Shown: positions 30,138 through 42,955, counted from the first letter of the stretch. The stretch: DNA of 64,000 nt from Rhodocyclaceae bacterium (GCA_013426785.1 JACDZI010000001.1:93425-157424), one strand, 5' to 3'. Program-made: numbers and translations. Notes: generated by a model from the letters alone, not told the origin.

Positions 30138-31439
30138 TTACTTCAGCTTGACGGCGGTAATGTCGGCCTTCTTGCCGAAACCCAAGGACTTGACCCAGGA
30201 CACATGGTGGCCGCGCGTGGTGATGTTTTCATCATGCACGGCGAAGCCGACGTTATAGACGCCGCCATCCTTTAGCGTTTTATCGTCGCTATTGGTCAGG
30301 CCGAGGGGGCGGGTAATGACCACCGTCCATATACCGTCCTTCCAGTTGCCAGTCGCATTGTTGTCGGCGGCGGAACCCTTTGCATCCTCACGGCTGGTCA
30401 GATAGTCGGGAATCATGTCGCCTTCCTTCCAGCCGGCATTGGCATCGAAGGGTACAGCATTCTTCTCGCGAATCAGGAAGTGGTCGGCCTTGTGCAGCTG
30501 GTCGACGGTAATCGACTTGTAGCCGACCTTCTTCTCATCCCACATGAACTTGGGTTGGCGCGTGGTCCGGTCGGCATTGCTGCTGAACATCTCTTTGCCG
30601 GCATCGCTGTAGCGGAATTCTAGGACGTAACCGTCGTCGGCCATGCCGACCGGGTGACTGCGATGGGCGCGCCACTGGATCAGATCGACAAAGCCGCCTT
30701 CCTGCTTGATCTTGGCCAGTTCTTCGACGCTCTTGCCGGTTTTCCAGTCGGCCGGATTGGTGCGCGAGGCTGGTAGATACTTGCGCACGTCGGATTTCTT
30801 GATCGCCTTGAGCAGGGCGTTGCCGGCCACTTCTTCCTTGGTGAATTGCTTCGCCATGTCGCGCTGCCCATCGTGGCAGGTCTGCCAGCAGCCCTGGCTG
30901 GCGAAACCCGGTACCTTGCCGTCGTCGATCATCATCGACATGCGGTCTTCGTAGAGGTCCATTTCTTGACCGAGTTGTACCGGCTTGTCGAGATGCGGAT
31001 AGCCCCAGACCTTCCATTCCTTGCCATCGAAGCGCAGATATTGATGCTCGGTGCCGGGAAAGGAATTCTCAGTTTTCCACTGAAAATGGAAATAGGCGTT
31101 CTGGTCGTCGTAGGCGACCTTGACGTTGAGATCGATCGACGCGTTCTTGAGCTTGACGGGCGTGGGTTCGAGCAGGGTACCCTTGACGATCTTGTAGCCC
31201 AGATCCTTTTCAGCATCGGGCTCATTGTGGCAGGACACGCAGGAGTCGCCGCGGGCGGTTTCCCTGGCGGCGCCCTTGTGCGCCTCGCTGGTCAGCCACT
31301 CGTAGGAAGACTGGCCGGGATAGAACAGAGTCAAGGATTTGCCGGGGATGGCGTTCCAGTTGATCTTGACCGGATCGGCAGCGTTGGCGGCATTGAGGCC
31401 GAGCGCGGCCAGACTGGCGAACAGGATGGTCTTTTTCAT
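30138..31439 (-). CDS. Ethylbenzene-dehydrogenase-related periplasmic multiheme protein
   Basis: A 433-residue secreted protein with a signal peptide ending LNAANAAD. One heme c motif, CVSCH, is near residue 67, and CWQTCH (a CxxxCH variant) is near 187. The rest resembles the heme-binding gamma-subunit domain of ethylbenzene dehydrogenase/DMSO reductase type II (ITRPLGL, FAVHDENITTRGHHVSW near the end). It would carry electrons in the periplasm. No molybdo-subunit is in the window. It is divergent from the outer-membrane protein gene across a 323-base region. Confidence 0.85.
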   Translation of the reverse strand: MKKTILFASLAALGLNAANAADPVKINWNAIPGKSLTLFYPGQSSYEWLTSEAHKGAARETARGDSCVSCHNEPDAEKDLGYKIVKGTLLEPTPVKLKNASIDLNVKVAYDDQNAYFHFQWKTENSFPGTEHQYLRFDGKEWKVWGYPHLDKPVQLGQEMDLYEDRMSMMIDDGKVPGFASQGCWQTCHDGQRDMAKQFTKEEVAGNALLKAIKKSDVRKYLPASRTNPADWKTGKSVEELAKIKQEGGFVDLIQWRAHRSHPVGMADDGYVLEFRYSDAGKEMFSSNADRTTRQPKFMWDEKKVGYKSITVDQLHKADHFLIREKNAVPFDANAGWKEGDMIPDYLTSREDAKGSAADNNATGNWKDGIWTVVITRPLGLTNSDDKTLKDGGVYNVGFAVHDENITTRGHHVSWVKSLGFGKKADITAVKLK

Positions 31440-31762
31440 TATTGATCTCCGTTATAGAGGGCTGACATTCGGGGTGGGGAACATACCTGGTACTAGTGGA
31501 CCGCAAGCAAGCCCATATCTGGTATGCGGGTGCTCCCGCTAACGGGAAGTTGCGGCCAACTGCCACCGTACATCATTTCCCCTCTGCAGCCAAGGGCAGC
31601 ATAGTCCTTCAGTAACGGGTTGGCATCAGACTAAAGTCTTATATATATCCAGACCATCGCCGCTAGTTTGTTGCGTTGCGTTCAGAGTAAAAATAGCCCT
31701 TGGCCTATCCTTGGTATCCGAGTGATACCCCTTCCGATCCCGAATTCGCCGAAAGGAACTCC
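31440..31762. promoter_or_regulatory. Long divergent regulatory region of the cytochrome island
   Basis: No gene is visible. The region is AT-richer than its surroundings (TATATATATCC). It holds ATACCTGGTA (31483-31492) and ATATCTGGTA (31515-31524), 32 bases apart, each built on the palindrome TACC-T-GGTA. An inverted repeat GGTATC-N5-GATACC lies at 31713-31729. Such elements resemble the inverted heptamers bound by NarL-type regulators, and a NarXL-type pair is encoded 3 kb away. This is inference from the pattern. Confidence 0.5.
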
Positions 31763-32470
31763 ATGATTTCTGTCACGATGAATCGCCTGTCCTTGTGCTT
31801 GCCCTTGCTGTTTTTTCTCGCCGCAGCCCCCGCCCATGCTGAAGGCCCGATGGCCACCGACGATGCCGGGACGCTGGACCGGGGTGGCATGAAGGTGGAA
31901 GGCGTATTGAGCCGCGACGACAGGGAACACGGCAAGGAGCTGGTGTTCGGTTTCGCACCGATCGAGAACGTCGAGGTCGGCCTTGCCGTTGCCCGCGCCG
32001 AGGACCGCTCAGCCGATCCGGATACCAATCTGCGCGGCACCGGTTTCAGTGTCAAGTGGGTGCCTTACCAGAATGACACCGGCTGGTCGCTGGGCGCCAG
32101 CTTCGGTTACGGGCACACCCGGATCAATGATCGCGAAAACGCCGACAAGTTCACCGAGAAGGAATACGCCCTGGCCGGCCTGGCCACCTATCGCCTGGAA
32201 AATGGCCAGGTGCTGCACCTGAACCTGGGTGCCACGCGCGTCAAGGCGCAGGGCAACAGCGATACCGTCGGCATCTGGGGCATCGGCTACGAATTCCCCC
32301 TGCTCGACAATCTGCAACTGACGGTCGAGACCTATGGTGAAGAGAACGCCGGCCCGGACAAGGCCATCGGCTTGCGCTACGAAGTCTTCGAGGGCTTCAA
32401 GCTGTCCGGCGCGGTCGGGCGTGGCAACGACCGCAGCTTCGGCCAGATCGGCTTCGCCTGGGAATTTTAA
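31763..32470 (+). CDS. Outer-membrane beta-barrel protein
   Basis: A 235-residue protein with a signal peptide ending APAHAEG. It has alternating strands such as GFSVKWVPY, WSLGASFGYGHTRI, ALAGLATYRL and VLHLNLGATRV, and a C-terminal phenylalanine (FGQIGFAWEF), the outer-membrane assembly signal. It probably forms a small barrel of about 10-12 strands. GAAAGGA precedes ATG 31763. It leads the operon with a diheme cytochrome and a beta-propeller. A role as an electron conduit or porin is possible but not shown. Confidence 0.8.
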   Translation: MISVTMNRLSLCLPLLFFLAAAPAHAEGPMATDDAGTLDRGGMKVEGVLSRDDREHGKELVFGFAPIENVEVGLAVARAEDRSADPDTNLRGTGFSVKWVPYQNDTGWSLGASFGYGHTRINDRENADKFTEKEYALAGLATYRLENGQVLHLNLGATRVKAQGNSDTVGIWGIGYEFPLLDNLQLTVETYGEENAGPDKAIGLRYEVFEGFKLSGAVGRGNDRSFGQIGFAWEF

Positions 32471-32498
32471 AATTTCTGAAATTCAAGAGGAGGTTTAA

Positions 32499-33389
32499 AT
32501 GAATACATATCAGGGTATATCGTGGCATTCCACCACCCATCGCCTCGCCGCTTTTCTGCTGGCGGGCGTCGCTTCCTGTTTCATGGCCGGACAGGCCAGC
32601 GCCGATAAAATGGACCGCACGATCAACATCGAATGGCTCGAACAGATGCACAGGGAAGGCGTGGCACTCAAGGGCGACCACTCCGCCGTCGATGCCCTGA
32701 TCCTTGGCCGCAACATTCCGATCCCCTACGACTACGTCGCCACCCTGATGCGCACGCCCAATGCCTTCGGCCAAGGTCCCGCCTGCATCATCTGTCACTC
32801 TTCCAAGGACCCCAAGGTCAGCTATCGTGGCCTCGATTTATCGACCTGCGACGGCATGAAGGCCGGTTCGACGGAAGATCCGGCCAATCCCATCTTCACG
32901 CCCGGCCAGAAGGCCGGCAAGTCCATCCTCGGCCGCCGCCTGCGCAACAACCGCATGCCACTGGGAGTACCTTTCAACATTTCCCCCAATGAAGGTGCCA
33001 TCAAGACTGTCACAGACTGGATCACCGCCGGGGCGCCGAACGACGAGAACTTCCAGAAGAGTGTTCTACCACTGTTCAAGAAGAAAAACGTCTTCGCACC
33101 CAACACGCCGGCTTGCACCACCTGCCACATGTCGAACAAGGAACCGCCGAGCTTCCATGAAATGAACCTGGGTAGCTACGAAGGCATCATGCTTGGTGCC
33201 GACTCCGTCGCCAAGGGTGTCGCCAACGCCACCAAGGTGGTCATCCCCGGCAACCCCAAGGATAGCCCGCTGCTGCAACATCTGTTCGAGGATCGCATGC
33301 CACCCGGCATTCCGCCGACCGAAGATCGCGACCATCCGAACACACGCATCCTGCTGCGCTGGATCGAACAGGGCGCTCGCTGCAATTGA
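32499..33389 (+). CDS. Diheme c-type cytochrome
   Basis: A 296-residue secreted protein. The signal peptide ends MAGQASAD. Heme motifs CIICH (near residue 97) and CTTCH (near 206) mark two cytochrome c domains. Each half carries a similar end (NRMPLGVPF and DRMPPGIPP), with Met as the likely sixth ligand, which shows an internal duplication. It has AGGAGG ahead of the ATG, and its stop overlaps a TTG start of the next gene. Confidence 0.88.
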
Positions 33390-34468
33390 TCCCCGGACGC
33401 CGCCGCTGCCTGGCGGCTCTCATCCTTGGGCTAGCCGCCGGCCCCACGTTCGCGCAGGGTAGCCCCGGCAAAACGTCGGGGCTGTTGCAGCGCTGGCCCA
33501 CCGGCAATGCCACCCTGGCGCCAGTGACAGCAGCAGGAAAACACATCCTGTGCGCCGGCGAGCAGGCCATCGCACTGGTCGATGTTGCCCGCCGTAACCC
33601 GCTCTGGCAACGGGCGCATGGTCTGCCGGAAGGCGCGGTGTTTCGGCCGCGTGTTGCCAATGGCGTAGCGGTCTGCGCCGGACAGCAGGCAGTCGGTGCC
33701 TGGCAACTCGCCACCGGCAAACCCCTGTGGCGCCATGACGCCCGCGCCCAGATCGGCGTGCCCTGCGTCACCCCGGATCGAGCCTTCTTCGGCGATGGCC
33801 ACGAACTGGTCTGCCTTGACCTGGCGAGCGGCAAGCCACGCTGGCGCTTCGCCGCCATCGCCGACACCCAGATCAGCTATGCCCCGACGGTCAGCGGCGA
33901 TGCCGTTTTCGTCGGCCCCGGCGACGGCCGTTTGTATGCGTTGAACACGGCGAACGGCTCGGTGCGCTGGACGCTCGACCGCATGGCCGAATGGCAATAT
34001 CTGCGCCAGTTGCATGTCGATGGCAATGTGCTGGTCGGCGGCAGCTACAAGGAGATCCTCTACGGCATCGACTGCGCCAGTGGCAAAGTCTTATGGACTT
34101 TCAATGCCGGCAACTTCATCAATTCGCATCACGTCGCGAATGGCGTCGCCTACCTCTGGTCGCCCACCGGCTGGCTGTATGCCATCGATGTACAAACCGG
34201 CGCGGTGCGCTGGCGCCATCTGACCACCGACTACCGGGGCGGCGGCGGCAACTGGGCTTCGTTGATGGCCGAACTGGTCACCCGGGACAACCGCCTCTAC
34301 GCCCTGGATCTGGACAATGTATTGCATGTCCTCGACACCGCCAGCGGCAAGGAAATCGGGCGCAGCGAGCTGCCCGAAGCGGTACGGCCGTTTGTGTTGC
34401 CGCTCAGCGCGACGCAGATGGTTTTCGGTGCCGAGAGCGGCGAACTGCTGCTCGCCTCGCTGGACTGA
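33386..34468 (+). CDS. PQQ-like beta-propeller repeat protein
   Basis: A 360-residue secreted protein starting at TTG 33386, overlapping the cytochrome stop (TTGA). The signal peptide ends AGPTFAQG. Repeats of the PQQ-propeller type are seen: [43 protein letters not shown] and [11 protein letters not shown]. It lacks the dehydrogenase active-site features, so it is more likely a binding scaffold for its cytochrome partner than an enzyme. Its TGA runs into a dispersed repeat. Confidence 0.83.
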
Positions 34469-34491
34469 AAAGTCGGCGCCGGCAGGACGGC
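34468..34491 (+). repeat. Dispersed 24-bp repeat, copy 9 (convergent junction)
   Basis: Starts in the last base of the propeller-gene stop and fills the gap to the response-regulator stop. Two changes from the consensus. Confidence 0.88.
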
Positions 34492-34496
34492 AAGAT

Positions 34497-35150
34497 TCAG
34501 GCTTTGCCGCTGCGCGGCCCGCCCTGCTGCACCGCCAGCAGTGCCGCCTCGGTGCGTGAGCGCACGTGGAGCTTTTGCAGGATGATCGTCACATGGTGCT
34601 TGATGGTTTTTTCCGCCAGATGCAGCCGTTCGCCGATCTCGCGATTGGTAAGCCCCTGACTCAGGAGATCGAGCACTCCGGTCTCGCGTGAGGTAAGCGT
34701 CTCGAAGGAATCGGCAGCACGCGGGCGGGAAAATTCGCTCAGCATGGCCGCCGCCAGCGCCGGGGTGACATAGGCCTCACCCGCCGCGACGCGACGCACG
34801 ATGTCGCGCAGTTCGCTGGCCGACACCCCCTTCAGCACATATCCGTGGGCGCCGGCCTTGAGGGCAGCCATCAGACTTTCCGGCGTCTCCGCCATGGTCA
34901 ACATCATCAGGCGCGCGGCGGGCAGCTCGGTAGCAATGCAGGCGGCGGCGGCAATGCCGCCCATGCCGGCCATGCTGATATCGAGCAGCACCAGATCGGG
35001 ACGCAGGCGGCGCGCCAGTTCGACCGCCTCTTCGCCGCTGCCTGCCTCGGCGACCACCGAAAAATCTGCGGCGGCAGCCAGCGAAGTCGCCACGCCCTCG
35101 CGGAACAAGGGGTGGTCGTCCGCCAGCAGGATGCGGATGAGGTCAGCCAT
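34497..35150 (-). CDS. NarL/FixJ-type response regulator
   Basis: A 217-residue regulator. The receiver domain has LLADDHPLF and the phospho-acceptor Asp in LVLLDISMAGMGG. A LuxR-type HTH lies near residues 150-205 (LTSRETGVLDLLSQGLTNREIGERL). ATG 35150 overlaps the kinase stop by eight bases. It converges on the cytochrome/propeller operon and is its most likely regulator. Confidence 0.93.
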   Translation of the reverse strand: MADLIRILLADDHPLFREGVATSLAAAADFSVVAEAGSGEEAVELARRLRPDLVLLDISMAGMGGIAAAACIATELPAARLMMLTMAETPESLMAALKAGAHGYVLKGVSASELRDIVRRVAAGEAYVTPALAAAMLSEFSRPRAADSFETLTSRETGVLDLLSQGLTNREIGERLHLAEKTIKHHVTIILQKLHVRSRTEAALLAVQQGGPRSGKA

Positions 35151-36594
35151 GCTCGCTCCCACCGGTCACGAGTGGCAAACGGGCGCGGATGCGCGTGCCC
35201 TGGCCGGGGGCGGTAGCTATCTCGAAGACGCCGCCCAGCAAGCGCACGCGCTCCTGCATGAACGCCAGGCCGAGGCGACCGGACCTGGCAGCCACCTGCG
35301 GGTCGAAACCGGCGCCCTGATCGGCGATTTCAAGGCAGACCGCTTCATCCTCACGCCACACACGCACCCGTGGCTCGCCGCCCGGCGCATGGCGGGCGCT
35401 GTTCGCCAGCGATTCCTGCAGCAAACGGTAAACCGTGATCTTGGTCGCCAGCGTTGCGTCACCGAGCGTAGCGTCGATGTCCGCGTCTATTTTCAGCGCA
35501 AACTGGCGCTCGCAGTCGCGCACCGCGCGCCGGGCCGTCTCCGCCAGCGTGAGTTCAGCAATGCCGGGCACCCCCAGGCCGGCGGCAATGTTACGGAGGT
35601 CGTCCAGAGCGATGCGTAGCGCCCTCCGGACCCGGGGCAGATCCGGCATGGCCGCGCCCTCCACCCGAGACGAACAACCACCGCAAGACTCGACCAGTTC
35701 GTCGAAGCGCATCAAGACGAAGGCCAGCGCTTGCGCCGGCCCATCGTGCAGGTCGGCCGCAATGCGCTGCAGGAATTCCTCATTCAAGGCCGTCGTCGCC
35801 GCGCCGGCCTCGCCCAGCCGCAAGCGCATACGTTCGTTGTCCTCGACTGCGGCTCGCAGTTGCTGCACTTGGCGGCGCAGATCGTCGCGCTGCTGCTGCA
35901 TGGTATCGTTGGCGCGGCGCACCTGGGCGAACATCAGCAGGAAGATCAGCAGCGTACCGGCCGCCACCACGCCCCAACTGCGCAGCTTCGCCTCCTCGAT
36001 CTCGCGATCGAGGTTTTCGGTGGTGAGATAGAACTCGCCCACCGTGAAGATCTCGTCGCGGCCGACCGGACGCACCGGCACATAAATCTCCAGCAGGCGC
36101 CCCCAGTTGCTGCGTTCGGCCTGATTGTCGTCTTCATCGAGGTGGCTGATGTGGGCCTCCACCTTGCCGGCAAAAGCGTTGGCCAGATGATTGCCGACCG
36201 GGAAGCGCTTGCCGGTCTGACCATGGTCGTTGCTGTAGAGGATCGCGCCATCGGCATCCCAGAGCTTGAAGCGCACGACCTTGCGCCGCAGCGGCCCTTC
36301 CTTGAAGATGAGATCGAGCGCCTCCTGGGTCGCCGCTGTTTGCAGCGCTGCCACCGAACCATGGTGCAGTTCGGCCGCCAGGATGCTTTCCATGTAGACC
36401 GATGACACGGCGGCGGCACGCTTGATCGCGTTGCGCTCGATTTCATAGGCCAGCCAGGTACCGACCAGAAACATGGCCAGCACCAGCAATACCGACCCAC
36501 CCCATAAAAACTGTCGTGAGAAACTGACGATTTCGAAGGGACGGCTCCCCTGAACTGGCAGGTCTGGTGCGTTGGGCAATACAGTGGATGGCAT
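35143..36594 (-). CDS. NarX-type sensor histidine kinase
   Basis: A 483-residue membrane sensor. Transmembrane helices lie at about 29-50 and 205-225, enclosing a periplasmic domain of about 150 residues. A coiled coil (MQQQRDDLRRQVQQLRAAVEDN) leads to the HisKA_3 domain with the phospho-accepting His in ADLHDGPAQALA. A C-terminal ATPase follows (ESLANSARHAPGG; DQGAGFD). It pairs with the following response regulator. A CGGCSS cysteine cluster in the dimerisation domain is unusual and could be redox-active. Confidence 0.92.
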   Translation of the reverse strand: MPSTVLPNAPDLPVQGSRPFEIVSFSRQFLWGGSVLLVLAMFLVGTWLAYEIERNAIKRAAAVSSVYMESILAAELHHGSVAALQTAATQEALDLIFKEGPLRRKVVRFKLWDADGAILYSNDHGQTGKRFPVGNHLANAFAGKVEAHISHLDEDDNQAERSNWGRLLEIYVPVRPVGRDEIFTVGEFYLTTENLDREIEEAKLRSWGVVAAGTLLIFLLMFAQVRRANDTMQQQRDDLRRQVQQLRAAVEDNERMRLRLGEAGAATTALNEEFLQRIAADLHDGPAQALAFVLMRFDELVESCGGCSSRVEGAAMPDLPRVRRALRIALDDLRNIAAGLGVPGIAELTLAETARRAVRDCERQFALKIDADIDATLGDATLATKITVYRLLQESLANSARHAPGGEPRVRVWREDEAVCLEIADQGAGFDPQVAARSGRLGLAFMQERVRLLGGVFEIATAPGQGTRIRARLPLVTGGSEHG

Positions 36595-36662: not shown

Positions 36663-38270
36663 TTACTCCGGCTTGCGCGCGCCGGTGAGAATGTCGAGTT
36701 CCGGACGGTAGATGCCGGTTTCGATTTCAAGAAACCCCAGCGTGGTATGAAACAGGTTGTCATGGGTGAATGGCTGGTCGCGCTTTTGCCGCAGGGCCGG
36801 AACGTCGATTTCCTCGTAACCGGGTCCGAACCACAGGATCGCCGGCACATGCGTTTGCGCCGCCGGTGCAATCACCTTGGGCAGGCCGTGCAGGTAGGTT
36901 CCCGCTTCACCCAGCGATTCGCCGTGATCGCTCACATAAAACAATGCTGTTTCGAAGCGCGCGCTGTTCTTCTTGAGCAGGTCAATGGTCTTCGCCAAAA
37001 AGTAATCCGTGTACAGCAAGGCATTGTCGTAGGCATTGACGATCTCTTCCTGCGTGCATTGGCTCAGGTCGCTGTTCCGACAGGTCGGCTTGAACTGTTC
37101 GAATGCAGCCGGATAGCGCTTGTAGTAGGCCGGGCCGTGGTTGCCCATCTGGTGCAGGACGATGAAGATGTCGCCCTTGGGATGCGCATCAATGTAGTCC
37201 TGCAAAGGGACCAGCATGCCCTCGTCGCGGCACTCCGTATCGCAGACCGTGTTCACGCTGGGAGACTTGTAGTCCTGATAGGGCACGCGCAGCGCCACCC
37301 CTTTCGAATCTGAATTGTTGTCCAGCCACAGCACGTTCACGCCCGCGCGCTGGAGCACATCGAGCAGGCTTTCCTGGCCCGCCGCCGAACCCTTGCTGCC
37401 TTCGACCGAAAACATGCAAGGCACCGACACCGCCGTCGAGGTACCGCAGGCATGGAAGTTGGCGAAGCTGACCACATCGTGGCCGCGCAACAAGGGGTTG
37501 GTCTCGCGCAGATAACCATTGAGAGAGAAATGGTCGGCCCGGGCTGTTTCGCCAACGACGAGGATGATCAGTTCGCGATCCTCGTCTTTCGTAGGAATGC
37601 GGGCATCGGCGCCAATCTGGGCAATCGTCTTGTCGACCGGAGCGGCGAACTGCCCGTAGGTGAACCGGGACAGCGAGTAGATCGGAAAGAGCGGATTGGT
37701 ATAGAAGCGCAGCGTTTTATTGACGCGCACGAACGAGGCGTAGAAACTGCCGAAGGCCATCACCAGCGCGACGATCACCACCAGCGCGGCCGCCAGCAAT
37801 TTGAACCGGGCGATCGATTCAACCCGCCAGCCACGCCACTGCACAGGCAACTTGGCAACCAGCAATGACGGTACGATTCCCAGACCAAACAGGTAGGCCA
37901 GCAATTTGAAGGTGAGCAGGTCGCGCGCCTCGCCGATGTTCGTCTGGACGGCGTTCTGTAGCATCTCGTTGTTGATGACGGTGCCGAAGTTGTCCATGAA
38001 ATAGGCTGTCAGCGCCGACGTCATCAGCATTACGATCAGTACTGGCTTGGTGGCGCGGCCGAAGCCAAACAGGCCAAGCAGAAACACCAATAAAGCCCCC
38101 ACCACGATCGCCAGCGACAGCAGCTCAAGCACCTGTCCGCCGCCCAACGGATAGATTTTCAGTACATTGCCGAAAAAACTCAGATTGCCGCAGGCCAGCA
38201 GGAAGACGCTGACAACCAGCACCAGCGTGTTGCCGGTGAGGCCACGCGTAGCGAATCGGGAGAAAATCAT
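36663..38270 (-). CDS. eptA: Lipid A phosphoethanolamine transferase EptA-like
   Basis: A 535-residue inner-membrane enzyme that adds phosphoethanolamine to lipid A, lowering the charge attracted by cationic peptides. Five N-terminal helices span about residues 10-180. The periplasmic alkaline-phosphatase-type domain follows, with VVGETARADHFSLNGY, the catalytic Thr in ACGTSTAVSVPCMF (near 280) and the zinc ligands in FYVSDHGESLGE. Paired cysteines fit the disulfides of the family. It is the last gene of an operon with a PmrAB/QseBC-type system. Confidence 0.93.
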   Translation of the reverse strand: MIFSRFATRGLTGNTLVLVVSVFLLACGNLSFFGNVLKIYPLGGGQVLELLSLAIVVGALLVFLLGLFGFGRATKPVLIVMLMTSALTAYFMDNFGTVINNEMLQNAVQTNIGEARDLLTFKLLAYLFGLGIVPSLLVAKLPVQWRGWRVESIARFKLLAAALVVIVALVMAFGSFYASFVRVNKTLRFYTNPLFPIYSLSRFTYGQFAAPVDKTIAQIGADARIPTKDEDRELIILVVGETARADHFSLNGYLRETNPLLRGHDVVSFANFHACGTSTAVSVPCMFSVEGSKGSAAGQESLLDVLQRAGVNVLWLDNNSDSKGVALRVPYQDYKSPSVNTVCDTECRDEGMLVPLQDYIDAHPKGDIFIVLHQMGNHGPAYYKRYPAAFEQFKPTCRNSDLSQCTQEEIVNAYDNALLYTDYFLAKTIDLLKKNSARFETALFYVSDHGESLGEAGTYLHGLPKVIAPAAQTHVPAILWFGPGYEEIDVPALRQKRDQPFTHDNLFHTTLGFLEIETGIYRPELDILTGARKPE

Positions 38271-38277
38271 CTTTCGT

Positions 38278-39396
38278 TCAGGCGGAAGCAGGCACAGGGA
38301 ACACGAGTCTAACAGTCAGTCCGGAAGAGCCGATGCCGTCAGCCAGTTCCAGCCGTGCGCCATGCAATTCGGCAATGCGGGCGACGATCGCCAGGCCCAG
38401 TCCGCTGCCCACGGTGTCCTGCCCCGCCAGACGCTGAAAACGCTGCAGTACGCGTGAGCGCTCTGCGACAGGGATACCGGGCCCGCTATCGCTGACGCTG
38501 ACGACGGCTTTGCCCTCCGCCACCCTTACCGCAACCCCAATCTGCCCACCCGGTGGGGTGTAGCGCACGGCGTTGTCGATCAGATTGCGTAGCAGGATGG
38601 CCAGCATGGCGGCATTACCTGCAACCGCGACCGGAGCCGGCGCATCGAGTTCGAGCGTAATGTCCTTGTCGAGTGCGGCCGGGCCATGATCGGCACAGAC
38701 TTCGGCCGCCAACTGATCCAGCCGCAATTCCGCCTTGCTCAGACCGGCGGCGGGGTCGAGACGGGCGAGCGTGAGGAGTTGTTCGACGAGATGGCTGGCG
38801 CGCTCGACGCTGATGCGAATCTGCCCGAGCGCGTGGTCGCGTTCGGCCGTATCGCGCGCCTGCTGCGCCACCTGCGCTTGGACAGCGAGGGCCGCCAGCG
38901 GCGTGCGCAATTCATGGGCGGCATTGGCGGTGAACTCGCGTTCGTTGTCGAGGGCGCGACCGACCCGGCCAAACAGGTCGTTGAGGGCGTCGACGAGCGG
39001 ACGGATTTCCACTGGCGCCTTCACCAGCACCAGCGGTTCAAGCCGCTCGGGGGCACGCTTCGTCACGGCACTTGTCACTACGGCGATCGGTGCCAACCCG
39101 CGCCGGGTGGCGAACCAGATCCAACCACCCAGTAGCGGCAAGCCAAACAGCAGCGGCGTCAGCAGCGTCTTGACGAAGTGTTCCGCCAGCTCGTGGCGCA
39201 GGTGAGCAGCCGCCTCGTCGTCGGCGCTCAGGTCTTCGTGGTGGGAAGTCAGCAGATCATCGATCTGGTGGCGCGCCTCGACGTAGGTATAGCCCATTGC
39301 CACCAGCCAGCCAGCCGTGACTCCGCCCAGCAATAGCAAGAGCAAGCGGCGGCGCAGCGAGAACCAGCGCGTTGCGACGGTCATGCCCGCTGTCAT
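38278..39396 (-). CDS. QseC/PmrB-type sensor histidine kinase
   Basis: A 372-residue sensor. Helices lie at about 15-37 and 78-93, enclosing a short periplasmic loop rich in acidic residues and His (TSHHEDLSADDEAAAHLRHE), which could bind metal ions. The phospho-accepting His is in NAAHELRTPLAAL, and the ATPase boxes are NLIDNAVRYTPPGG, DSGPGIP and GSGLGLAI. It overlaps the response regulator by four bases and is followed by eptA seven bases on. Confidence 0.92.
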   Translation of the reverse strand: MTAGMTVATRWFSLRRRLLLLLLGGVTAGWLVAMGYTYVEARHQIDDLLTSHHEDLSADDEAAAHLRHELAEHFVKTLLTPLLFGLPLLGGWIWFATRRGLAPIAVVTSAVTKRAPERLEPLVLVKAPVEIRPLVDALNDLFGRVGRALDNEREFTANAAHELRTPLAALAVQAQVAQQARDTAERDHALGQIRISVERASHLVEQLLTLARLDPAAGLSKAELRLDQLAAEVCADHGPAALDKDITLELDAPAPVAVAGNAAMLAILLRNLIDNAVRYTPPGGQIGVAVRVAEGKAVVSVSDSGPGIPVAERSRVLQRFQRLAGQDTVGSGLGLAIVARIAELHGARLELADGIGSSGLTVRLVFPVPASA

Positions 39397-40052
39397 CCCT
39401 TGGGCACCAGATAGCCGACACCGCGCAGTGTCTTGATCCGCTCGTTACCCAGTTTTTTGCGCAGGTGATGGATATGCACTTCCAGCGCGTTGCTGTCCGG
39501 CTCGTCGTGCCAGCCATAGAGGGAAGATTCAAGCTGGGCACGGGTCATGACGCGCCCGGCATTCTCGACCAGGGTCTGCAACAACGAAAATTCGCGCAGC
39601 GAAAGCTGCACCGGTTCGCCGGCCTGGGTCACGGCGCGGGCAGCCGGATCGATGCTCAAGTCGCCCAGGTGCAGCAGCGGCTGCGTGCGTCCCGTGGCGC
39701 GGCGGGTGAGCGCCCGAATCCGTGCCGCGAGTTCATCGATGGCGACCGGCTTGACCAGATAATCGTCGGCACCGCAGTCGAGGCCGGCGATCTTGTCGCC
39801 GGTGGCATCCCGGGCGGTCAGGATCAGCACCGGCAGGATCTGGCCGCGGCTGCGCAGGCGCTTGAGCACATCCATGCCGGCCAGGCGCGGCAGGCCAAGA
39901 TCCAGCACCAACAGATCGAAAGTTTCGCTGGCGAGGGAGTGATCGGCCGCCACGCCATCCTTAACCCAGTCGACCGCGTAACCGGCCTGGCGCAGGCCGG
40001 CCATCAGGCCATCGCCGAGTTGCGGATCATCCTCTACCAGTAGCAGTCGCAT
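39393..40052 (-). CDS. OmpR-family response regulator (QseB/PmrA-type)
   Basis: A 219-residue regulator. The receiver domain has LLVEDDPQLGDGL and the acceptor Asp in LLVLDLGLPR, with KPVAIDELAARI at the end. A winged-helix output domain follows (LSLREFSLLQTLVENAGRVMTRAQLE; NALEVHIHHLRKKLG). Its probable targets carry CTTAAG-N5-CTTAA boxes in this window, matching PmrA-type recognition. It lies downstream of the diheme cytochrome gene. Confidence 0.94.
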   Translation of the reverse strand: MRLLLVEDDPQLGDGLMAGLRQAGYAVDWVKDGVAADHSLASETFDLLVLDLGLPRLAGMDVLKRLRSRGQILPVLILTARDATGDKIAGLDCGADDYLVKPVAIDELAARIRALTRRATGRTQPLLHLGDLSIDPAARAVTQAGEPVQLSLREFSLLQTLVENAGRVMTRAQLESSLYGWHDEPDSNALEVHIHHLRKKLGNERIKTLRGVGYLVPKG

Positions 40053-40089
40053 GATGACTGGACTCTAACGGCCCGCCCGGCGGGCGACC

Positions 40090-40590
40090 TCAATCCCGGA
40101 AAAAGCGCCGGACGCCGGGCATGATGATGTCGTGTTCGCTGTAGCCACCCTTCTCTGCGTCCGGGTGGCAAGCCGCGCAATTGGCCGGCGTATTGACCTT
40201 GGGATTGCGCCAGTCGGCCTGGCTGACCTCGCGATGCTTGCGCTTGAAATAGGCCGTGCCGGTCAGGCGGGGCAGGTTGCTGCCTTGCGCCTTCCCGCCA
40301 GGGCCGCCGACTTTTTGGCCACCTGCATTCTTGAGGAGGAAGTCCTCAAGAAGGCGGTGGGTTTGCGCATCCAGGATGACCTCATCGTCGTAGTGATTGT
40401 CGAGCGCGGCCAGCACCTTTTTCCAGTCTTCCGCGATCAGCATCGCTGGTGGAAAGGCGACATGACAGGCCGCGCATTCCTTCTGATAGGCGGGCGGCAT
40501 GTCGGCAGGCAAGCGCGATCCGTCGGCATGGGCCGCCAGCGGCAGGCAGGCGGTAGCGAGGATAAACAGGCAAGCGGCTGAAATTTTCAT
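40090..40590 (-). CDS. Diheme cytochrome c (DHC type)
   Basis: A 166-residue secreted cytochrome. The signal peptide ends LPLAAHAD. Two CAACH heme motifs lie near residues 39 and 141, with EVSQADWRNPKVN before the second, as in the DHC family. ATG 40590 is the family start. A variant dispersed repeat is read in frame in the middle as KVGGPGGKAQG. It is the first gene of the operon with the OmpR-type system and eptA. Confidence 0.88.
   Translation of the reverse strand: MKISAACLFILATACLPLAAHADGSRLPADMPPAYQKECAACHVAFPPAMLIAEDWKKVLAALDNHYDDEVILDAQTHRLLEDFLLKNAGGQKVGGPGGKAQGSNLPRLTGTAYFKRKHREVSQADWRNPKVNTPANCAACHPDAEKGGYSEHDIIMPGVRRFFRD
40289..40316 (-). repeat. Dispersed repeat, copy 11 (variant, in frame in the diheme cytochrome)
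   Basis: A divergent copy with a three-base length change, keeping the frame and reading KVGGPGGKA. Confidence 0.6.
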
Positions 40591-40626
40591 GATCGGGGTC
40601 CCATGGGATGGCAGATGATGCTGCGG

Positions 40627-40681
40627 AGTATGAAAACGGAAGCTTAAGAACAACTTAAACCGATCTTACGGCAAGCTTAAG
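40627..40681 (-). promoter_or_regulatory. Four phased PmrA-type boxes and promoter of the cytochrome-RR-HK-eptA operon
   Basis: On the + strand CTTAAG (40643), CTTAAA (40654), CTTACG (40665) and CTTAAG (40676) start at exact 11-base steps, so every spacer is five bases. The PmrA consensus is YTTAAK-N5-YTTAAK, so this is two boxes in a row. On the minus strand a -10-like CATACT (40627-40632) follows the nearest box at the usual distance, with the box over the -35. The ATG of the diheme cytochrome is 37 bases further. Confidence 0.75.
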
Positions 40682-41621: not shown

Positions 41622-42371
41622 TCAATCGTCATGGTGTTTCTTGCCACTTTGCTTACCCTCGCCTTTGCCATTCCCGCGGCCACGAATGTCATGCTCGTTG
41701 GCGCTCAGGTGACATTCCGTGCAATTGTCGAAATCGCGGATACCCTCTTCGATGTGTTCGCGCCGGATATTGGCCGGGGTATGCTCATGGCAACCATAGC
41801 AGGTATAACGACTGTAGTCGTTACGTTCGTGGCAGGTGACGCAGCGGGCATTGTGGTCGCGATCGAGCACGAAATACTTGTTGTGGTCGAAGCTGGCCGG
41901 TACCCACTTGTCCAGGCTGTGGCACTGGCTGCAGTTGCCGGTGATCTGCTGGTGTAGCGAATCCCTGGGTGACTTGTGGCAGCTCTGGCATTCGTCGCGC
42001 ATCGTCTTGTCCAGCAGCGCATGATTGAAGTAGCCGGTCGGCCGGTAGCGTTTCACGCCGGCATGGTCGCTATGGCAGGCGACGCATTCCTGGCTCGTCA
42101 GTTTCTGATGGAACGGCGTCTTGGTCAAAGGTTTGGCGATCGGCTGGCCGGCCGTGGTCAGCCGGCCGATATCGTCCGGCTTGTGGCAGGTCACACAACG
42201 CTCCGACTGCGCCCCCGTAAACGCCGCATGGCAAGCAAAACAATCCGTCTCCAGCTTGGTATGGCCGGGAATCAGCTTGCCGGGTCCAACCATCAAATGT
42301 GGATAAACGAAGACCAGGATGGTCGCCACGATCAGGTTGGCGGCAAGGATCAACTTGATGGCCCGGTTCAT
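41622..42371 (-). CDS. Membrane-anchored octaheme c-type cytochrome
   Basis: A 249-residue protein with an N-terminal anchor helix ([19 protein letters not shown]) and eight CxxCH motifs in order: CFACH, CVTCH, CVACH, CQSCH, CSQCH, CVTCH, CYGCH and CTECH. A charged tail ([14 protein letters not shown]) ends it. The even spacing of hemes suits a wire from the membrane into the periplasm. ATG 42371 overlaps the cytochrome b stop by four bases; the ORF-track start is too long. Confidence 0.92.
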
Positions 42372-42955
42372 ATCCACTCCCAGAACAGGAAGATGCTGAC
42401 GATATGGCCAAGCGACAACACGGCGAAGACGATGAAAATCGGAATATGCACCTTGCGCCACAGGTTCATCGCGTCAAGCGTGACCGCATCCCAGAACACG
42501 GCGCGCTCGACCTCCTCTTTCGACAGGCCGCGCAACTGGTAATGGTCGCGCTGCCCCAGCACATACTCGCGAGCACGCCCGAGCAGCAGCCTGCCGACCA
42601 GGCCACTAATGACATTCACGCCCATCGCCACCGTCGCCAGCCAGGGCAGGATGGCGTTGAAATGAATGCCGGCATGCAGCAGCACCATCAGCGAGCCGAG
42701 CCAGGTGCCGACCTCATGCAAGGTCAGCAGGTTCTTCGGATTACCCGAGGAGATCACCTTGCGCTTACGCAGCGAATAGGCGAGCGAACCGATAATCAGC
42801 AGCGTGCCGGGAATGCCCAGGTAGCGGCCGATCCAGACTAGGTTGAGTCGGTGCAGCAGGTAATCGCCGGCGAGCGTGGCCGCACACAGCACACCCAGCA
42901 GCAGGGTGAAGGGCAGGATGTGCCGGCTCCAGAGCGAGGACGTGGCTTGATCCAT
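42368..42955 (-). CDS. Membrane cytochrome b
   Basis: A 195-residue integral membrane protein with about four helices. Histidines placed as heme ligands occur in LLHRLNLVWIG, TLHEVGTWLGSLMVLLHAGIHFN and KVHIPIFIVFAVLSLGHIVSIF, so two b-type hemes are likely. It resembles ferric-reductase-like cytochromes b. It overlaps the octaheme gene and follows the flavin reductase by one base, so it likely passes electrons from the reductase to the octaheme protein. Confidence 0.82.
   Translation of the reverse strand: MDQATSSLWSRHILPFTLLLGVLCAATLAGDYLLHRLNLVWIGRYLGIPGTLLIIGSLAYSLRKRKVISSGNPKNLLTLHEVGTWLGSLMVLLHAGIHFNAILPWLATVAMGVNVISGLVGRLLLGRAREYVLGQRDHYQLRGLSKEEVERAVFWDAVTLDAMNLWRKVHIPIFIVFAVLSLGHIVSIFLFWEWI

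Follow-up and report, generated by a model that had tools for sequence, protein, structure and literature searches.

A FoxE cytochrome and its propeller partner beside a two-component pair in a Rhodocyclaceae genome with photosynthesis genes: a probable Fe(II)-oxidation locus

The closest described counterpart of the locus studied here is foxEYZ of Rhodobacter ferrooxidans SW2, known for photoferrotrophy. Related foxEY-like operons, usually without foxZ, are known in Rhodocyclales and Burkholderiales; the sections of the published analysis drawn on here also name the heme ligands and disulfide residues of FoxE (PMC10654088). Rhodoferax MIZ03, which carries one of the betaproteobacterial foxEY loci, has no photosynthesis genes according to the corresponding sections of its report (PMC8552755). 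Within those sections, neither source reports a regulator, a barrel or an EB_dh partner for these genes. A 2017 review listed photoferrotrophs only among the Alpha- and Gammaproteobacteria and the Chlorobi (PMC5359306), and the literature searched yielded no description of a fox gene regulator or of a betaproteobacterial photoferrotroph.

The window analysed, 64,000 nucleotides of a Rhodocyclaceae genome, contains a locus that resembles the SW2 genes in its FoxE, which is 61% identical with all ligands kept, in the propeller gene directly downstream and in a host genome endowed with a type-II reaction centre. It differs from them in the missing foxZ, in a 12-strand barrel gene ahead of foxE, in the Rhodocyclaceae host, and in the presence of a divergent EB_dh cytochrome gene and of a two-component pair with a predicted operator. 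Absence of foxZ and a betaproteobacterial host are features shared with the Rhodocyclales and Burkholderiales operons; unlike Rhodoferax MIZ03, the window genome has photosynthesis genes. An initial annotation had recognized six genes here (EB_dh protein, barrel, two-CxxCH cytochrome, propeller, regulator and kinase), all of which lie where it placed them. The features, in window coordinates, are:

30138 to 31439, minus strand: EB_dh-domain heme protein (PF09459, E 2.7e-60) with one CxxCH, one CX3CH and a Sec-type signal
31598 to 31603, minus strand: -10-like element TATGCT on the EB_dh side, +23 from the operator edge, proposed from the spacing conserved in relatives
31626 to 31641, no strand: predicted response-regulator operator TCAGACTAAAGTCTTA, top matrix match in the window
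31664 to 31669, plus strand: -10-like element TAGTTT on the barrel-foxEY side, +23 from the operator edge, proposed from spacing
31763 to 32470, plus strand: 12-stranded outer-membrane beta-barrel, 235 aa (AlphaFold2 pLDDT 88.5; Foldseek)
32499 to 33389, plus strand: FoxE homologue, diheme c-type cytochrome (match to PDB 5mab, conserved heme and disulfide residues)
33386 to 34468, plus strand: PQQ-type beta-propeller (PF13360, E 7.1e-32) in FoxY position, adjoining foxE
34497 to 35162, minus strand: NarL/LuxR-family response regulator (PF00072, PF00196)
35143 to 36594, minus strand: HisKA_3 histidine kinase (PF07730, PF02518) whose periplasmic sensor domain spans some 150 residues in an alignment with nine relatives
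36663 to 40052, minus strand: EptA lipid A phosphoethanolamine transferase and a HisKA/OmpR-type pair, given for context and outside the claimed module

We consider it fairly probable that the island is an Fe(II)-oxidation module of a phototrophic Rhodocyclaceae bacterium, placed under an envelope-redox two-component switch. Periplasmic FoxE would take electrons from Fe(II), with FoxY as its propeller partner, and a carrier in the periplasm would then deliver them either to the reaction centre of photosynthesis or to an oxidase of respiration. In the outer membrane, the 12-stranded barrel would act as a small channel by which a solute, plausibly iron, crosses. The EB_dh cytochrome would serve as another electron carrier that has come under this switch too. 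A redox or metal condition of the envelope would be sensed by the membrane kinase; once phosphorylated, the regulator would bind TCAGACTAAAGTCTTA and activate both divergent units, overlapping their -35 regions.

Judged from its sequence, the cytochrome is close to certain to be a FoxE. In a comparison with solved structures, the product of 32499-33389 matches FoxE of SW2 (PDB 5mab) over the whole mature length (residues 28-295, 61.3% identity, E 9.7e-114). The same protein gives almost no Pfam signal, and an NCBIfam search returned no family for FoxE. The characters that define FoxE are all found, namely two CxxCH hemes (CIICH 96 and CTTCH 206), cross-placed axial methionines (NRMPLG and DRMPPG) and the C-terminal disulfide (Cys117/Cys295); the CxxCH and axial-Met motifs and the Cys pair are kept in six other loci as well. 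The start of the propeller gene overlaps the foxE stop by four bases, and a propeller gene adjoins foxE in every FoxE locus found. Its PQQ-type fold family and its place directly after foxE mark it as the putative foxY. The earlier suggestion of an envelope electron-transfer system is supported; its purpose, then left blank, is indicated by the FoxE/FoxY pair, a known Fe(II)-oxidation module. Fe(II) oxidation by this locus is probable. That the function of FoxE in Betaproteobacteria is a presumed one weighs against this reading. No foxZ (DMT transporter) gene was found among the neighbouring genes examined, which counts against the Fe(II)-oxidation reading. FoxE is rare, occurring in 4 of 19 genomes of the genus and, in an order-wide sample of 399 genomes, in the window's genome only; a plasmid search with FoxE and the propeller gave no match.

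The window genome carries pufL, pufM, pufC and bchXYZ, all scoring above curated cut-offs. These genes lie on contig C208, FoxE being on contig C171. The composition of C208 fits the genome (r 0.944 versus 0.946-0.957), and the contig also bears kdp, nif, rnf-like and hydrogenase-like genes (L149, L152, L153), which gives the host the appearance of a diazotrophic member of the Rhodocyclaceae of the purple non-sulfur type. Third-position GC is lower in the photosynthesis genes than in their flanks, suggesting that they may be an acquired block; a misassembly is also possible. A reaction centre and an Fe(II) oxidase homologue, the combination used as genomic criterion for photoferrotrophs, are thus found in one genome; the reaction centre is absent from the six other FoxE genomes tested. 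On this gene content, photoferrotrophy of the window organism is possible.

The kinase and regulator had been labelled a NarX/NarL-type pair. The label is apt for the NarL/LuxR output and the HisKA_3 chemistry, both shared with NarX/NarQ-NarL/NarP, but the pair falls under all NCBIfam equivalog cut-offs (NarL 177 of 250 bits, NarX 42 of 578, NarQ 56 of 553) and its predicted operator is the palindrome TCAGACYWWRGTC. Relatives of the regulator are 58-80% identical. Those of the kinase, found in 11 loci, in most cases have an electron-transfer operon opposite them: a diheme cytochrome with NapC; MtoD-NapC-decaheme-MtrB; MtrA-MtrB; mono- or hexaheme cytochromes with NrfD-like proteins; or a monoheme-porin with diheme cytochromes, one such operon (L065) also carrying cd1 nitrite reductase. 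The MtoD/NapC/decaheme/MtrB set beside regulator relatives recalls the Mto pathway of Sideroxydans lithotrophicus ES-1; the window itself has no Mto set.

Since some relatives of the pair adjoin nirS or NapC genes, the signal need not be iron. The pair might answer general redox conditions, nitrate, nitrite or NO and switch periplasmic cytochromes, iron being incidental to the signal. The relative beside the cd1 nitrite reductase, the others near NapC or hexaheme/NrfD-type sets and the NarL-like regulator are all in line with this alternative. However, the neighbouring sets include Mtr/Mto and FoxE, their common theme being extracellular or metal electron transfer, and the sensor falls below the NarX and NarQ cut-offs. 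On balance we lean against a general redox or nitrogen-oxide signal, while taking it seriously. The rival explanations considered in this work overlap with the Fe(II)-oxidation reading, in that an Fe(II) oxidase could still be under the control of a redox or nitrogen-oxide signal. As a separate observation, L065, L067 and L069 encode, divergently from the kinase family, proteins of 435-462 aa in which an N-terminal CxxCH precedes a porin-like part; their architecture is Cyc2-like and Pfam gives no identification.

Control of the island by the adjoining pair, proposed in the initial annotation, is supported, though through a different site from the one suggested. The divergent gap (31440-31762) measures 323 bases, as stated, provided that the barrel starts at ATG 31763, the most likely start, which is preceded by AAAGGAAC. 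Two TACC-T-GGTA palindromes had been reported in the gap. One is exact (TACCTGGTA, at 31484), the other actually reads TATCTGGTA; a GGTATC-N5-GATACC repeat (31713-31729) is real. The TACC-T-GGTA palindromes were rejected as operator, being neither above shuffles nor a motif common to the relatives. Against shuffles of the divergent region, neither class stood out: palindromes with 4-base arms gave P 0.41, and those with 6-base arms P 0.33 for gaps of 3-8 and P 0.095 for a gap of exactly 5. The likely site is a palindrome that had been overlooked, at 31626-31641.

A GAC-N4-GTC palindrome of the TCAGACYWWRGTC type is present in 10 of the 11 upstream regions of the kinase relatives. A matrix was built from 10 other loci and tested by leaving one out; each time, the site ranked first in its own locus (10/10). 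Within the window, the best match falls at 31626-31641, between the EB_dh and the barrel-foxEY genes, with a score of 21.4 (next best, 12.8) that was equalled in none of 40 shuffled 64-kb windows. Exact TCAGACYWWRGTC occurs once in the 3.24-Mb genome, at this very site; genome-wide, matches with one mismatch are not above control. On the kinase side of the relatives, an extended -10 element (TAnnnT) lies at +22 to +24 in 8 of 11 loci and at +44/45, two helical turns further, in the remaining three. The window has TAnnnT at exactly +23 on both sides of the operator (P 2.5e-4). By this spacing, the operator falls at about -42 relative to both divergent promoters, a usual position for an activator, and the regulator would accordingly activate from TCAGACTAAAGTCTTA. 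The target sides of the relatives at most suggest a consensus, GCCNCTAG. Taken from these motifs, control of the divergent region by the neighbouring regulator at the predicted site is likely.

One other genome (G011) shows the order found in the window, with operator, C-terminal barrel remnant, foxE and foxY. Its independent retention there ties the operator to the barrel-foxEY operon. Several findings count against the Fe(II)-oxidation module under this switch: G011 has the operator at foxE yet no close regulator (best 39%); G012 has the pair, EB_dh and foxEY, with foxEY on another contig and without operator; and the operator is absent at most other FoxE loci. The initial annotation had taken independent occurrence of the genes in relatives as evidence against a common system. 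This is partly the case, as EB_dh, foxEY, the barrel gene and the kinase/regulator genes each stand apart in other genomes; the island is thus an assembly of modules, linked here by one shared operator, and not a single ancestral system. With its predicted operator, its kinase and regulator genes and a host that has genes for photosynthesis, the locus offers a handle on fox regulation and on betaproteobacterial photoferrotrophy. A broader proposal, that this is a betaproteobacterial photoferrotroph whose Fox is run by an undescribed two-component family steering other iron or extracellular electron conduits (Mtr/Mto, porin-cytochrome) of related bacteria through a shared palindrome, as a portable Fe(II)/redox switch, is tentative and, taken whole, rather doubtful. 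If the same pair does govern Mtr/Mto and Fox across Rhodocyclaceae, the palindrome would be a marker for unrecognized metal-electron-transfer operons.

The EB_dh cytochrome shares its domain family with ethylbenzene dehydrogenase gamma (EbdC) and the heme b subunit of type II DMSO reductases. It differs from EbdC in standing alone, with no alpha or beta subunits, and in the added CxxCH (residues 67-71) and CX3CH (CWQTCH, 184-189), both invariant across six orthologues and one paralogue; it scores far under the EbdC cut-off (14 of 400 bits). The island lacks a molybdenum subunit, as previously noted. Genome-wide, Molybdopterin (PF00384) matches comprise only NuoG and one NrfD-linked enzyme below every type-II cut-off, and the catalytic Mo subunit of ethylbenzene dehydrogenase or type II DMSO reductase was not found in the window genome; a type II molybdoenzyme partner was therefore rejected. 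A sequence comparison of the EB_dh protein with solved structures returned chance matches only, and its structure model (pLDDT 53.5) was left out of use.

Orthologues of the EB_dh protein (59-74%) occur in seven genomes, counting that of the window. In four genomes, they accompany a dCache histidine kinase and an NtrC-type regulator and have a -24/-12 sigma-54 motif upstream; in three of these four loci, a monoheme cytochrome closest to MtoD (4xxl) of the Mto pathway and then an octaheme-b561 protein follow. The EB_dh cytochrome thus belongs to a different module than FoxEY. These associations would also fit an EB_dh gene that is functionally unconnected with FoxEY and came to share the region by an accident of rearrangement. 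Such an accident is unlikely: the region upstream of the window EB_dh gene has no sigma-54 motif, the window genome lacks both the dCache-type kinase and the octaheme protein, the operator lies at conserved spacing on the EB_dh side, the companion cytochrome of the relatives is closest to MtoD, and G012 and G107 likewise have EB_dh close to the kinase/regulator pair. Within the Fe(II)-oxidation reading, a link of the EB_dh protein to Fe(II) and its presumed place in the electron chain form the weakest part. A paralogue on contig C59 of the window genome (L047 6537-10079) stands in a row after NapC and before diheme c and flavocytochrome-c-like flavoprotein genes, possibly a sulfur-oxidation setting.

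The AlphaFold2 model of the barrel has 12 strands (pLDDT 88.5), and its nearest solved folds by Foldseek include KdgM, OmpG and the COG4313 channel. With 12 strands and no CxxCH, it was rejected as a porin-cytochrome conduit (MtrAB, Cyc2); the modelled barrel is too narrow to house a cytochrome. The same genome has a paralogue, 82% identical, next to feoAB; remoter relatives adjoin an ABC transporter set or an imelysin/di-heme (DHOR)/DUF1513 cluster. These neighbours, of which the ABC set is a putative iron carrier at most, suggest a family tied to iron transport. That FoxEY shields the periplasm from Fe(II) or handles iron, outside energy metabolism, with the barrel admitting it, FoxE oxidizing it and EptA limiting Fe(III) binding, would suit this link at several loci, the EptA and two-component genes adjoining here and in L042, and the light-driven Fe(II) oxidation described as detoxification in R. 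capsulatus (PMC5359306), but is quite improbable for an island without any uptake or storage gene whose kinase/regulator family stands beside respiratory electron conduits.

EptA, an OmpR-type pair and a dihaem cytochrome are near EB_dh both in the window (36663-40653) and in L042 (4776-17398); such placing of a lipid A-modifying enzyme close to genes for Fe(II) oxidation could offer protection from Fe(III). In G011, the barrel gene is cut to its last 37 or so residues between operator and foxE (L044 8627-9717), a decay in progress. Elsewhere in the window, 41622-42461 encodes, beside a small membrane protein, a protein of 279 aa that has eight CxxCH motifs and perhaps a membrane anchor at its N terminus. 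GC-rich repeats at intervals of 70-73 bases form a CRISPR-like array that runs to the contig end (62970-64000).
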